Shown piece after piece: positions 26,523 through 35,587 of a stretch of DNA of 53,655 nucleotides. The DNA is taken from positions 1 to 53,655 of the forward strand of contig JAJZQO010000011.1 of assembly GCA_021847575.1 (NCBI GenBank). The letters run 5' to 3'. Below the pieces are notes generated by a model. It made no database searches, was not told the origin of the DNA, and was given only the letters and a program-made list of their open reading frames with translations. A program made the position numbers and the translations under genes. Position 1 is the first letter of the stretch; the number at the start of each line of letters is the position of its first letter. Source of the DNA: Bacillota bacterium (GTDB taxonomy: Bacteria > Bacillota > Sulfobacillia > JAJZYS01 > JAJYTV01).

Positions 26523-26558
26523 CTAGGGTGTAGCACATGCTTATGTGGTACACCCTAG
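26523..26558. promoter_or_regulatory. 36-nt inverted repeat over the amidase start
   Basis: CTAGGGTGTA (26523-26532) pairs with TACACCCTAG (26549-26558). After one G-G mismatch, CACAT pairs with ATGTG around a 4-nt loop. It covers the AGGGTG ribosome binding site and the first candidate ATG (26537). It is either a translation-blocking hairpin or a DNA operator in the promoter region. Confidence 0.65.
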
Positions 26559-27301
26559 AGTCCATGCAACAATATCTTCTGGGCATCGCGACGTTCCTGA
26601 CGATCCTGGGCATGGTCCCGACAACGCTCGCCGCACGTGCGCGGCCCGAACTGCAAGGCCAGGTGGTCATCGTCGACGCCGGCCACGGCGGCCGCGACTT
26701 CGGTGCGCGGGTGACGGGAGTGGACGAGAAGGATCTGGTGCTGTCGATCAGCCGCAAGACCGCGGCTGCTCTGCGCGGGGCCGGGGCCAAGGTCGTCGAG
26801 ACCCGCCGCGCGGACAGCAACCTCATTTCGCGCAGGCCCGAACCGAGCAACCTGCAGCGCATGAACCTGCAAGCCCGAGTCGATCTAGCCGCCCGAAACG
26901 AGGCGGACATTTTCCTCAGCATCCACGCCAACAAGTACTCGGACAGCTCGGTTCACGGGGCGCAGATCTTCATCGGCGAGAACCCTGACGCCGAACGTCA
27001 GCTTCTCGGCACCTGCCTGCAAGCCGAAATGTCCGCCGTGAGCGGCGGGCGGCGACAGCTCGATATGCTGCGGGACCTTTACCTGATGCGGCACCTGACG
27101 ATCCCGGCGGCCTTGATCGAGGTGGGCTTCATGTCCAATCCGGCCGAACGCAGCCGCATGCTTGATCCGCGCTACCAAGACCAGGTCGCCCAGGCGGTCA
27201 GGCGGGGCGTGATGTGCTTCGTGCGCGGGCGCTCGGCACTGAACCTGCCACCCCACCAAACGAAGGATCCTATCGCGACGCCGGACGTACCTCCGGTCTA
27301 A
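26537..27301 (+). CDS. N-acetylmuramoyl-L-alanine amidase, CwlD-like
   Basis: A 254-residue Amidase_3 protein that cleaves the amide bond between muramic acid and the stem peptide. Zinc-site motifs are VDAGHGGRDFGA (His, near 50-60), the Glu in the EKDLVLSISRK region, FLSIHANKYSD (His) and ALIEVGFMSNPAE (catalytic Glu). The N-terminal hydrophobic stretch YLLGIATFLTILGMV is a signal peptide or anchor. Size, architecture and the downstream RDLYLMRHLTIPA segment resemble CwlD, which makes muramic-delta-lactam in spore cortex. That would fit a spore-former, but other Amidase_3 enzymes cannot be excluded. The start is ATG 26537, or ATG 26564 just past the palindrome. Confidence 0.88.
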   Translation: MLMWYTLESMQQYLLGIATFLTILGMVPTTLAARARPELQGQVVIVDAGHGGRDFGARVTGVDEKDLVLSISRKTAAALRGAGAKVVETRRADSNLISRRPEPSNLQRMNLQARVDLAARNEADIFLSIHANKYSDSSVHGAQIFIGENPDAERQLLGTCLQAEMSAVSGGRRQLDMLRDLYLMRHLTIPAALIEVGFMSNPAERSRMLDPRYQDQVAQAVRRGVMCFVRGRSALNLPPHQTKDPIATPDVPPV

Positions 27302-27357: not shown

Positions 27358-27745
27358 TCATCGGCGTCCGCTGCTCGCTGCCCCATTAGGCTAAGGGGCG
27401 GCGCGCACGAACTCGCGGTTCACACCTTCGCTCGCGCCGAGCACCTCGGAGCCGAGGTCGTTGCAACCCACGATCCCGACGCCGAGTAGACGGCTCAGGT
27501 CCGTCGCAACCCCGTCCGGTCGTTCTGGGGCCAGGATGACGTAGTAGCCGAACGGTTTCACGGTGTAGCGGTTCGGCCCGTCGATCGCCGCCACCCGGCG
27601 GCCCGCGATGCGGTAGAAGTCGCCGCCACGGCCGAAGGTACGGGTGAGGCCGCCGATCATGGCCGCCAGGTCGATGCGCGGCGCGCCCACCTCACGCACC
27701 GCCATTTCCAAGACAACTGATTTGCATGAAGTGTATTCAATCAAC
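27358..27745 (-). pseudogene. Truncated copy of the CofE-like gene
   Basis: The translated minus strand (EMAVREVGAPRID, GGDFYRIAGRRVAAIDG, VILAPERPDGVATDLSRLLG and so on) is nearly identical to the C-terminal two-thirds of the gene at 29654-30355. DNA similarity runs from about 27358 (matching 29680) to about 27745, with a 6-nt in-frame deletion, a roughly 30-nt deletion near 27725 and a truncated 3' end. The N-terminal third is missing. No ribosome binding site or matching start is present, so it is a broken partial duplicate in the same orientation as the intact copy. Confidence 0.85.
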
Positions 27746-27833
27746 TGACGGCACGTCCATGGGGTGGGCCATCGCGAGGGCTGCGATCGCAGGGCCGCGG
27801 AACGAGACGGCACTCGTCGCGTTCAGAGAGATG

Positions 27834-27877
27834 TTGCCAGGACCACGGTTCTCTCTATAATGAGAGATATCACTCTC
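27834..27877 (+). promoter_or_regulatory. Promoter with alternating CTCTC/GAGAG operator-like repeats
   Basis: TTGCCA (27834-27839), 16-nt spacer, perfect -10 TATAAT (27856-27861). The -10 is framed by CTCTC (27851-27855) and GAGAG (27862-27866), and a second CTCTC follows at 27873-27877, giving overlapping inverted repeats with 6-nt spacers. This suggests a repressor site on the promoter of the ATPase-deaminase pair. Confidence 0.7.
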
Positions 27878-27893
27878 AAAGTAGGTGGACCAC

Positions 27894-29000
27894 ATGGCTG
27901 ATCTGTTCCCTGTCGGTGGCCCTGTGCCGGCCGAGGATGTGGTCGATCGGGCGGAGTTCATTGAACAGGTGGTCACGCGTCTGCTCGACCGTCACAGCGT
28001 GGTGCTTTCCGCGCCGAGGCGCCTCGGAAAGAGTAGCGTGGCTTATGAGATTCTGCGCCTTCTGAGAGAAGAAGAGGACTGCTACACGGCTGCAGTTGAC
28101 CTCTCTACTGTTTCAACTGTGCGTGACCTCGCGGAACGGCTGATCGCCATGACGATCGCCAGCGTCGCTCCTGGTGTGCGGACTGCTCTGACAGCGCGGC
28201 AAGGACTCGGCAAGTTGATTCGCATGCCGGAGGTTCGGGCCAAGATGCACGACCTGGAGTTGTCGTTTTCTCTGCGTCCTGGCGAGGAACAACGGCCAGA
28301 CGAGCTTCTCGACGAGGCGTTCAGTTTGCCGGAACGCGTGGCCAGCAGGGAAGGGCGCAGATTCGTCATACTCCTTGATGAGTTCCAGAGTGCCGCCGCA
28401 ATCGGAGGACCTGCGCTTCTTGCGAAGATGCGCGGCACCTTTCAAGTCCAACGCCACACGGCGTTCCTCTTTCTCGGTAGCCAAGCCGGTACGATCGCAC
28501 AGATCTTTGGCAACAGCAGTAAGCCCTTCTTCCGCTTCGCCACGATGCTTGACCTTCCCCCGGTACCAGATGAGGCCTGGAGGACGTACATGCGCCGTCG
28601 GTTGGCGGAGCGCAGGATCGCGATCGACGACGCAGCTATCGACGCTATCCTGGCGTACACGGGCGGGCACCCATACGACACCATGCTAGTGGCATACGAG
28701 GCCCACCTGCTCGCGAGGCGCTCTCGGCAGATCGACACCAAGATTGTCGGTGCGGCCTACATGGAAGCCGAAGCGCATCTCAACAGCATCTTCGAGGCTG
28801 AGCTGGACGCCCTTGGCTCGCGAGGGCGCGTGTTGCTCGGTCGCCTTGCCCGCAGTGAGCCGTTGTACGCCGACGAACGGGCTAGCGGGACAGTGGACCG
28901 CGCACTACGTGATCTCGTCCGCCAGGGCGTTATTCGTCGCATCGCTCGCGGGCGATACGAGTTTGTCGAGCCGATGCTCGCGAGACACATGCTGGGCTGA
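27894..29000 (+). CDS. STAND-like P-loop ATPase with C-terminal winged helix
   Basis: A 368-residue protein of the archaeal-type ATPase group (PF01637-like STAND NTPase). It opens with the typical FPVGGPVPAEDVVDRAEFI. Walker A is SAPRRLGKSS (Lys46) and Walker B is FVILLDEFQ (Asp162, Glu163); a sensor-like FLFLGSQAG follows at about 197. The C-terminal region (LDALGSRGRVLLGRLA, then RALRDLVRQGVIRRIARGRYEFVEPML) is a winged helix. Such proteins act as signalling switches or in defence and mobile-element functions; the role here is unknown. ATG 27894 has AGGTGG upstream. The next gene, a deaminase, follows after 12 nt, so the two are one operon. Base composition looks less GC-rich than in neighbouring genes, which suggests transfer. 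Confidence 0.85.
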   Translation: MADLFPVGGPVPAEDVVDRAEFIEQVVTRLLDRHSVVLSAPRRLGKSSVAYEILRLLREEEDCYTAAVDLSTVSTVRDLAERLIAMTIASVAPGVRTALTARQGLGKLIRMPEVRAKMHDLELSFSLRPGEEQRPDELLDEAFSLPERVASREGRRFVILLDEFQSAAAIGGPALLAKMRGTFQVQRHTAFLFLGSQAGTIAQIFGNSSKPFFRFATMLDLPPVPDEAWRTYMRRRLAERRIAIDDAAIDAILAYTGGHPYDTMLVAYEAHLLARRSRQIDTKIVGAAYMEAEAHLNSIFEAELDALGSRGRVLLGRLARSEPLYADERASGTVDRALRDLVRQGVIRRIARGRYEFVEPMLARHMLG

Positions 29001-29012
29001 GGTGATTGAGGC

Positions 29013-29636
29013 ATGCATCTTGAGGATGCTTGGTCAGCAGTGTTCTCTGAGGCTTGGGCGGCCTATCAAGACGGCACGATTCCGGTAGGTGCTGCATTCG
29101 TCGACGCCACGGGGCAAGTGCGCTACCGGGGCCGCAATCAAGTATTTTCGCCGAAGTCCGGGTCCATGCCGCTGCAGCATACGCGGCTCGCGCATGCGGA
29201 GATCAACGTGCTGGCGCAGGCCAGCCCTGCCGACCGGCTCTATGAGGGGATCTTGTATACCACCCTGGAACCGTGCGCCATGTGCGTAGGGGCCGCTGTA
29301 GTGTGCGGCGCCCGCCATATCCGGTACGCGGCAAAGGATGGTCCGACCGGTGCCACCGAGCTTCTCACTGTCCACCCTTTCTTGGCATCGAAGAACGTGA
29401 AGCTTGAAGGTACCCAAGGGGTTCTCAGCGCCGCATCCCTGGTGCTGATGACCGACTGGATACTGCGCGAGGACTCGAAGACAGCTGGCCGGACGCTCGA
29501 CGCCTACCCCGCGCAAGACGCACGGGCCTTGGATCCAGTGCAGGAATGGTTCCGCGCGGGCCGTTTGCAAGCCATGGCGCAGGCCGGCGTGTCCTCAGAC
29601 GCACTGCTGGCAGCGAAAGAGTCGGCGCCGCGCTGA
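29013..29636 (+). CDS. TadA/CDA-fold nucleoside deaminase
   Basis: A 207-residue zinc deaminase of the cytidine deaminase superfamily. The zinc/catalytic motifs are HAE at 61-63 (in RLAHAEINVLAQ) and PCAMC with Cys88 and Cys91 (in TTLEPCAMCVGAA). The early IPVGAAFVD and later GARHIRYAAKDGPTGATELL fit the TadA/guanine-deaminase branch. It is about 40-50 residues longer than usual TadA, with an extra C-terminal helical region. GAGGTGAT at 28999-29006 overlaps the stop of the ATPase gene, so translation is coupled. The substrate (free base, nucleoside or tRNA) cannot be told from sequence. Confidence 0.88.
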   Translation: MHLEDAWSAVFSEAWAAYQDGTIPVGAAFVDATGQVRYRGRNQVFSPKSGSMPLQHTRLAHAEINVLAQASPADRLYEGILYTTLEPCAMCVGAAVVCGARHIRYAAKDGPTGATELLTVHPFLASKNVKLEGTQGVLSAASLVLMTDWILREDSKTAGRTLDAYPAQDARALDPVQEWFRAGRLQAMAQAGVSSDALLAAKESAPR

Positions 29637-29653
29637 CCAATAGCGTGCGACGC

Positions 29654-30355
29654 CTAGTTGCCCACCGCACGGATCACACCCATCGGCGTCCGCTGGTCCC
29701 GCTGCCCCATGGGGTTATCCCGCAGGGCTGCGCGCACGAACTCGCGATCCACACCCTCGCTGGCGCCGAGCACCTCGGAGCCGAGGTCGTTGCAGTCCAC
29801 GATGCCAACACCGACGCCGAGCAGACGGCTCAGGTCCGTCGCAACCCCGTCCGGTCGTTCTGGGGCCAGGATGACGTAGTAGCCGAACGGCTTTACGGTG
29901 TAGCGGTTCGGCCCGTCGATGGCCGCCACCCGCCGGCCGGCGATGCGGTAGAAGTCGCCGCCGCGGCCGAACGCACGTGTCAGGCCGCCGATCAGAGCCG
30001 CGAAGACGATGCGGGGGGCTCCCACCTCGCGCATCGCCATCTCCATCACAACCGGCTGGCCGATGCCCATGCCGTGTCGCGTGGTGTGCACGAAGTGTGA
30101 GATCAGCCGCGCCAAGGTCCGCGGTCTGACCTGCCACATGCCGACAGCCCGCCCCTGCGTAATGGAGACCACCTTTTCCGAGACGAAGGCGATGTCGCCC
30201 TGCCGCACGCCTGGCAGCAGGTACTGTCTCGCGATCGCCTGGATGTCCTGCCCGGAGCGCACCAAGGGAATCCGCACCAGCTGTCGCCGCACCGTGTGCT
30301 GGCCCACCTCGATGGTTCCACCGTCGATCCATTCGCTTTCCGCACCGGCATGCAT
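29654..30355 (-). CDS. CofE-like F420-0:gamma-glutamyl ligase family protein
   Basis: A 233-residue member of the F420_ligase family (PF01996), whose founder CofE adds glutamate to coenzyme F420-0. Family features are LPGVRQGDIAFVSEKVVSITQGRAV near residues 47-70, then the YRIAGRRVAAIDGPNRYTV region and IVDCNDLGSEVLGAS near 190-205. It is standalone, and no other F420 gene is in the window, so F420 synthesis is not established; many CofE-like proteins are uncharacterised. ATG 30355 has GGGGGTGG 7 nt upstream. An 8-bp hairpin can mask that site. A truncated duplicate lies at 27358-27745. Confidence 0.85.
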   Translation of the reverse strand: MHAGAESEWIDGGTIEVGQHTVRRQLVRIPLVRSGQDIQAIARQYLLPGVRQGDIAFVSEKVVSITQGRAVGMWQVRPRTLARLISHFVHTTRHGMGIGQPVVMEMAMREVGAPRIVFAALIGGLTRAFGRGGDFYRIAGRRVAAIDGPNRYTVKPFGYYVILAPERPDGVATDLSRLLGVGVGIVDCNDLGSEVLGASEGVDREFVRAALRDNPMGQRDQRTPMGVIRAVGN

Positions 30356-30364
30356 CAAAGCGCC

Positions 30365-33845: not shown

Positions 33846-34259
33846 TCAGTCCGCCGTATCCAGGTCGCGCGGCGAGAAGGCGTTCGGCAGGAGCTCCGCC
33901 AAGGAGGTGCGACGCCACTTCCCGCCCTGCCCGACGAGCCAGACCGGCGCCGCCGCGTCCATGAACTCAAAGAGTACTTGGCGGCAGGCGCCACAGGGAG
34001 CGATGGGGCCCTTCGTCTCCCCCACCACGAGAATCTCCGCGAATTTGCGCGCCCCTCCCGACGCCGCCGCAAAGGCGGCAGAGCGCTCTGCGCACATGCT
34101 GAGGCCATACGAGGCGTTCTCGACATTGCCCGCCGCGACGATCCGACCGCCCGGCAGGCGCAGCGCCGCTCCCACCGGAAAGTGCGAGTAGGGCGCATAT
34201 GCGCTCTCTTGCGCCTGCCGGGCCGCCTGGAGAAGGTCCTGCGGCGGTCCTTCACTCAT
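33846..34259 (-). CDS. cdd: Cytidine deaminase
   Basis: Hydrolyses cytidine and deoxycytidine to (deoxy)uridine in pyrimidine salvage. The 137-residue length matches the tetrameric Gram-positive type. The substrate loop is YSHFPVGAALR and the zinc/catalytic motif is MCAERSAAFAA (CAE) with PCGACRQVLFEF supplying two more zinc cysteines. It is the last gene of the hem-deo operon, and its ATG overlaps the stop of pdp by 4 nt (ATGA). Products feed the upstream pdp and deoC steps. Confidence 0.96.
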   Translation of the reverse strand: MSEGPPQDLLQAARQAQESAYAPYSHFPVGAALRLPGGRIVAAGNVENASYGLSMCAERSAAFAAASGGARKFAEILVVGETKGPIAPCGACRQVLFEFMDAAAPVWLVGQGGKWRRTSLAELLPNAFSPRDLDTAD

Positions 34260-35587
34260 GCGATCTCCTCCCGTCGGCCGTCATTCGTGTAGGCACAAAG
34301 AACGGCAGGCATCCTCCCCGGTGCCTCATCGCCGATCTCCCAGACGGATGCGAGACGCTCGAGTGCAGCCGCGAGCTGCTCGCCGCTCGCGGCGTGCACG
34401 CGGCAGATCTCGTCGCCCTGCCGCACCGTGGCGGCCAAGGGCGCGACGATCTCGACCCCGGAGGCGGCGTCGACCGCATCGCCCTTGCGCAGGCGCCCCG
34501 CGCCCGCAAGGCGGGCCGCCTCGCCGACGCCGCGCGCCTTGATGAGCCGCACCGTCCCGCCGCGTCCCGCGGTCAGGCTGCCTGTGCATGCAGGGCGGGG
34601 CCAGCGTCCAGGGTCGTCGAGGAATGCCAGGTCTCCGCCCTGCGAGGCAATCCAGCGCCGGAAGACATCGTACGCCTGCCCGCTCGCCAGCACTGAGGCG
34701 GCCCGCGCGCGCGCCGCGGGGCGGTCCTCGCCGACCACGGCATGCAGGGCTTCGGCGGCCAGCGCAGTGACCACCTCGCGCAGATCCTCCGGTCCTCCGC
34801 CCTTGAGGCAGTCGATAGCCTCGCGCACCTCGAGCGCATTGCCGACCGTGAGCCCGAGCGGCGCATCCATCCGCGTCAGGAGGGCACGCGTATCGCGGCC
34901 GAAGGCCGCGCCGAGACGAACGGCCAACGCCGCGAACGCCTCGGCCGAGGCCTCGTCGGGGAAGAAGGCCCCATCCCCCACCTTGACGTCGAGCAGCACG
35001 AGGCGTGAGGAGACCGCAAGCTTCTTCGACATGATCGAGGAGGCGATCAGCGGCAGGGACTGCACCGTCCCCGTCACGTCGCGCAGGGCATAGAGCAGGC
35101 GGTCCGCCGGGACGATGTCGTCGCTCTGCGCCGCGACAGCCAAGCCGTAGCGGCTGACGAGCGTGGCGAACTCGCTCCTGTCCAGCGATGTGCGCAGGCC
35201 GGGAATCGACTCGAGCTTGTCGAGTGTGCCGCCGGTGTGGCCGAGCCCCCGCCCCGAGAGCTTTGGCACCGCGAAGCCGAGAGCGGCAAGCAGCGGCACC
35301 GCGACCAGACTCGTCTTGTCGCCGACACCGCCAGTCGAATGCTTGTCTACCAGTGGGCGGTGCGCCGAGATGTCGACACGGACACCCGAGCGGAGCATGG
35401 CTTCGGTCAGGGCGCGCGTCTCCTCGAAGTCCATGCCCCGGATGGTCACCGCCATGAGAAACGCGGCCATCTGGTAATCCGGCACGTCCCCTGAGACGTA
35501 AGCCGAGACGAGACCTTGGATCTCGCCTGCGTCGAGGCTGCCACCATCGCGCTTGCGCTCGATCAGCGGCAGGGCATGCACCTTCAT
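34256..35587 (-). CDS. pdp: Pyrimidine-nucleoside (thymidine) phosphorylase
   Basis: Phosphorolyses thymidine, deoxyuridine or uridine to base plus (deoxy)ribose-1-phosphate. The 443-residue protein has the NP-II family fold. Landmarks are KRDGGSLDAGEIQGLV at the start, the phosphate-binding VDKHSTGGVGDKTSLV, the family signature SGRGLGHTGGTLDKLESIPG, and SSIMSKKLAVSSRLVLLDVKVGDGAF. ATGA overlaps join it to deoC upstream and cdd downstream, so the three are translationally coupled. Gram-positive enzymes of this group usually accept both uridine and thymidine, so the Pdp name is preferred over DeoA. Confidence 0.95.
   Translation of the reverse strand: MKVHALPLIERKRDGGSLDAGEIQGLVSAYVSGDVPDYQMAAFLMAVTIRGMDFEETRALTEAMLRSGVRVDISAHRPLVDKHSTGGVGDKTSLVAVPLLAALGFAVPKLSGRGLGHTGGTLDKLESIPGLRTSLDRSEFATLVSRYGLAVAAQSDDIVPADRLLYALRDVTGTVQSLPLIASSIMSKKLAVSSRLVLLDVKVGDGAFFPDEASAEAFAALAVRLGAAFGRDTRALLTRMDAPLGLTVGNALEVREAIDCLKGGGPEDLREVVTALAAEALHAVVGEDRPAARARAASVLASGQAYDVFRRWIASQGGDLAFLDDPGRWPRPACTGSLTAGRGGTVRLIKARGVGEAARLAGAGRLRKGDAVDAASGVEIVAPLAATVRQGDEICRVHAASGEQLAAALERLASVWEIGDEAPGRMPAVLCAYTNDGRREEIA

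Follow-up and report, generated by a model that had tools for sequence, protein, structure and literature searches.

In the window, by which we mean the whole stretch of 53,655 nucleotides that was analysed (the entire contig C137 of a source genome, G000, of 2.86 Mb in 137 contigs), an ATPase gene and a deaminase gene stand side by side and are most likely an operon that arose by chance in a hotspot of gene insertion. With a probability of roughly 0.7, the two are separate cargo that an insertion hotspot, located where a cofE-like gene has its 3' end, brought side by side in the source genome, and not parts of a dedicated two-protein system. This reading builds on what sequence comparison established, namely the insertion, a displaced gene tail, a breakpoint common to the tails and the lack of linkage between the two genes elsewhere. 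The insertion hotspot is a more original observation than the gene pair: stacked small inserts at one breakpoint in uncultured Bacillota could show how accessory genes collect.

The first gene (27894-29000, + strand; P0001, 368 aa) encodes an AAA+ ATPase of the ATPase_2 kind with a C-terminal winged helix, as assigned from profile, family and structure-model matches; an in-frame GTG at 27885 is an alternative start. The second (29013-29636, + strand; P0002, 207 aa) encodes a TadA-like zinc deaminase with extra C-terminal helices, assigned from PF00383, conserved residues, and matches of the model and in the PDB. Both open reading frames score as coding and their homologues keep the key residues, which bears out the claim of the earlier note that these are two real adjacent genes, ATPase then deaminase. 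They share a strand and are separated by 12 nt; since they are adjacent without overlapping, their translational coupling is, judged from the reading frames, only plausible. As the earlier note had described, the pair is less GC-rich than its neighbours, the ATPase and deaminase genes having the two lowest GC3 values (0.70 and 0.72) of the 45 called genes of the window (mean 0.83, sd 0.04). The pair is flanked by an N-acetylmuramoyl-L-alanine amidase gene (26537-27301, + strand; PF01520, E 3.9e-41), which adjoins cofE in relatives and is its ancestral neighbour, and by a full cofE-like gene of the F420-ligase family (29654-30358, - strand; PF01996, 34 bits). No tRNA gene was found in the window. 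Farther along, two overlapping genes at 33846-35587, one cytidine-deaminase-like (PF00383) and the other resembling pyrimidine-nucleoside phosphorylase, probably represent ordinary salvage.

Between the amidase and ATPase genes, alignment revealed the displaced 3' end of a cofE-like gene (27359-27717, - strand), with a frameshift near its end and 86% DNA identity to the full copy. The pair had been said to lie between two copies of one gene; the right copy is indeed full, the left one being only this 3' fragment. In four relatives (G002, G003, G005, and G010, the last from another family of the order), cofE and the amidase gene are direct, convergent neighbours, representing the empty site, and this adjacency places the ATPase and deaminase genes within a 2.3-kb insertion. 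The proposed insert (27718-30052) contains only the ATPase gene, the deaminase gene and a replacement cofE tail, and measures 2335 bp if read as an insertion at cofE codon 103 (VVMEMA), at base 30052. No integrase was found within these 2335 bp. The empty sites, the displaced cofE tail and the outlying GC3 together support the earlier suggestion of acquired DNA.

Other genomes carry different genes at the same site. In G001, cofE is followed by two CPBP-type protease genes, each with a cofE tail behind it, and then by the deaminase gene and the contig end; another short cofE tail piece adjoins the amidase gene on a separate contig. The site in G007 shows an AAA protein gene, a decayed cofE tail, an MFS gene and a weak trace of a tail; in G008 the deaminase gene, with a short cofE remnant, is followed by other genes; and in G009 a piece of the deaminase gene adjoins cofE. 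The clear cofE tails (those of the window, two of G001 and that on contig C94 of G007) begin at one codon, give or take a few bases. A fixed insertion point, a replaced gene end, a displaced original end and an empty site in relatives, the marks of an island in a protein-coding gene, were all found here. Stacked inserts at the 3' end of cofE, separated by cofE tails, were seen at L038 (G001, C162), L161 (G007, C30) and L165 (G001, C143). Of the G001 tails, one is more similar to those of G005 and G002 than to its own. The stray G007 tail, foreign to the genus of its host, has its closest counterpart in the other genus; from these affinities, it seems that tails pass from one lineage to another.

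The fragment in the window finds its closest match in the tail of the full cofE copy beside it (89%), so that, for the window alone, one may envisage a decayed local tandem duplication, in which the genes between the copies would not have been inserted with the fragment. We consider this improbable in view of the empty site in four relatives, the common starting codon of the G001 tails and the stray G007 tail, and the outside affinities of one of the former and of the latter.

Going further than an insertion hotspot, we can picture, very tentatively, a cassette-like system that lacks its own integrase and uses the 3' end of cofE for attachment, with small units stacking at about codon 103. Each unit would comprise a cofE tail and one or two genes, and accessory genes like the ATPase and deaminase of the window would arrive in this way; there would be two or three units in G001 and possibly two in G007. 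Our literature search returned nothing direct on a hotspot at the cofE site. On contig C94 of G007 (L162:8228-12154), the surroundings of the foreign cofE tail include a PIN toxin-antitoxin pair, a tRNA-Ala gene, and genes for a tyrosine integrase and an excisionase-like protein. This integrase was considered as a candidate mover of the cofE units, but it adjoins the tRNA-Ala gene, which makes such a role uncertain. Directly upstream of one G001 tail (L038:4597-4616), we also noted a repeat of about 20 bp, CCCGCTCTGGGAGCGG, which recurs at L210, L211, L216 and L218; its copies in other genomes, some of them near contig ends, may mark the end of an insertion sequence.

Among the 60 relatives searched, full-length relatives of the deaminase (46-86% identity) occur in six genomes of the window's family, with no ATPase gene beside them, and the ATPase is present in other relatives with no such deaminase beside it. 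G008 carries the deaminase at the cofE site without the ATPase, as does G001 as far as its contig reaches, and the nearest ATPase (71% identity) lies at another locus of G006, a genome without such a deaminase. Within the class (154 genomes), the deaminase was detected in 20 genomes, the ATPase in 37 and both in 10, including the source genome; in the nine others the two genes never lie on one contig, same-contig copies being restricted to G000. This class-wide co-presence exceeds expectation (10 versus 4.8; P = 0.006, uncorrected for kinship), and within the family both genes occur in 4 genomes, 4.2 being expected. Across a phylum sample of 398 genomes, 10 carried the deaminase, 26 the ATPase and only the source genome both. 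No such deaminase was found at E <= 1 near about 60 ATPase loci, for which flanking sequence was searched to at most 5 kb, or less where a contig ended. As the genomes are fragmented, some links may hide behind contig ends. The earlier note had spoken of a module and had named co-occurrence elsewhere as the test on which that idea could fail; no linked copies were found outside the source genome and each gene occurs without the other, and the module is not supported.

In the deaminase tree, the cofE-site copies of two genera form one clade (98/97), apart from the copies that three genomes of the same genus carry at another locus. This clade would be consistent with an ancient pair, and so would the position of the deaminase gene, which in the window, G001 and G008 adjoins cofE or one of its tails, and that of the deaminase piece of G009; the window would then keep the original order, and the remaining genomes of the cofE site would have lost the ATPase. 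Such a history is quite improbable, given that it requires repeated loss and that the nearest ATPase, in G006, sits at a different locus in a genome without such a deaminase. Some doubt about the separate-cargo reading is left because co-presence is slightly in excess, the assemblies are fragmented and close relatives are few; the 12-nt spacing and the low GC3 of both genes would suit a functional pair as well.

Upstream of the ATPase gene, a sigma-70-type promoter, TTGCCA-16-TATAAT (27834-27861, + strand), was predicted from a consensus match only (11/12); it is the sole match of this quality in 3.1 kb, where 0.4 were expected, and the deaminase gene of the source genome is probably transcribed from it. 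Over this promoter lie operator-like GAGAG/CTCTC inverted repeats (27825-27878, + strand), consisting of AGAGAGA/TCTCTCT at 27825-27856 and TGAGAG/CTCTCA at 27861-27878; a promoter packed with such repeats had been described before, and both elements were recovered. The GAGAG-N-CTCTC motif is not rare by itself (one in 53.7 kb, 0.67 expected), and a like GAGAG/CTCTC motif stands directly before the start of the G006 orthologue. Palindromes upstream of 43 genes of the ATPase family reached a mean score of 8.0, as against 5.7 for shuffled sequences; the generic score upstream of the window's own ATPase was not above its shuffles, so the case of the window rests on the motif held in common with G006. 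In many Bacillota (L101-L119 and other loci), palindromes such as TGTAATATAATATTACA or TATTAC-N7-GTAATA were observed about 45-60 nt before the ATPase start. A search of 13 genomes gave no further long copy of the 179 bp preceding the ATPase gene of the window. The winged helix and the promoter palindromes of the family suggest that the ATPase binds the repeats over its own promoter and may thereby regulate itself, which makes self-regulation of a little-studied ATPase family directly testable.

P0001 scored 31.2 bits against PF01637 (ATPase_2), for which the Pfam cut-off is 33.2 (E 2.4e-7), and the same profile matched 17 of 18 members of the ATPase family at E <= 0.001, the best at 5e-13. 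The P-loop RRLGKS and the DEFQ motif are conserved among homologues. The structure model (pLDDT 88.6) found its best PDB matches over nearly its whole length in 2qen and 2fna, followed by Orc/Cdc6 proteins. Of the former description as a STAND-like ATPase with a winged helix, the winged helix stood, at the C terminus, and the STAND label gave way to AAA+/ATPase_2, which fits better. The closest named matches are from Bacillota metagenome assemblies, the best of them from DX1.bin88; the family is common as a lone gene, and we found nothing direct on it in the literature.

The deaminase matched PF00383 at 57 bits (cut-off 25), with conserved zinc ligands, an active site made of H-A-E and P-C-x-x-C, and a CDA-type fold. 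It is nearest to TadA, which provided the best PDB matches, and to cytosine and guanine deaminases; it scored 53.6 bits against the curated TadA model, whose cut-off is 150. The C-terminal helical part was predicted at low confidence (pLDDT 51-58). All this agrees with the earlier view of a TadA/CDA-fold deaminase longer than usual TadA. That it might be the sole TadA of the genome, a finding named in the earlier note as fatal to its proposal, was ruled out by a separate, stronger TadA candidate encoded in the source genome. The deaminase would not be the essential tRNA A34 enzyme, and is best pictured as a putative zinc hydrolase of the TadA/cytosine/guanine type, acting on a base, nucleoside or nucleotide.

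That the pair forms a dedicated defence module is unlikely, and is the least probable of the readings weighed here: a lineage-specific two-gene defence or stress system, with the ATPase sensing a signal and activating the deaminase to alter the nucleotide pool, would resemble RADAR in function and not by homology, and would suit the close spacing, the single predicted promoter, the acquired look of both genes in GC3 and the mild excess of genomes with both, but the missing linkage elsewhere, G008 with its deaminase at the cofE site and no ATPase, and ten neighbours without a defence gene speak against it. PADLOC gave only weak partial matches for the pair and no defence gene among these ten neighbours, and matched no RADAR model at E <= 5, which leaves the former defence idea without backing. 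Three further candidates were rejected: an anti-phage dCTP deaminase (27.5 bits versus a cut-off of 400, over 52 residues of the deaminase core only); an AbiE type IV toxin-antitoxin system (about 27 winged-helix residues matching AbiEi at 20.7 bits, with no AbiE gene in ten neighbours); and a viral origin, as viral contigs held no relative of the ATPase and only TadA-like proteins for the deaminase. Among phage records, no match to the deaminase was found.

With RADAR, the likeness is one of composition only, an ATPase gene beside a deaminase gene. RdrA and RdrB each measure about 900 aa, the latter bearing an ADA-type histidine tetrad, and the two are encoded in tandem in all known RADAR systems (PMC9994260); here, in contrast, the proteins have 368 and 207 aa, the deaminase has a CDA-type fold and the pair is linked in the window only. 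Protein sizes, fold and the absence of tandem linkage across genomes rule out RADAR membership, and the RADAR comparison drawn earlier does not extend beyond composition, the defining features being absent. A candidate RADAR-like system is thereby struck off, and its two genes receive better labels. The deaminase shares the fold and the zinc-binding active site of TadA, but has an extra C-terminal part and lacks the TadA residues around the N-H motif. The ATPase is alike in fold to the archaeal ATPase_2 proteins 2qen (PABY2304) and 2fna (SSO1545), with TM-scores of 0.74 and 0.68 by query length, although identity is only 17% and its family is a bacterial lone gene with promoter repeats. For the insertion site, the closest precedent is given by the dusA-type genomic islands, whose insertion supplies the gene with a new end while the old one persists as a remnant, and which average 42.6 kb and have a common integrase (PMC4482086). 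In both cases a gene end is replaced and the original end displaced, but here it is the 3' end of a cofE-like gene, and the insert is only 2.3 kb long and holds no integrase.
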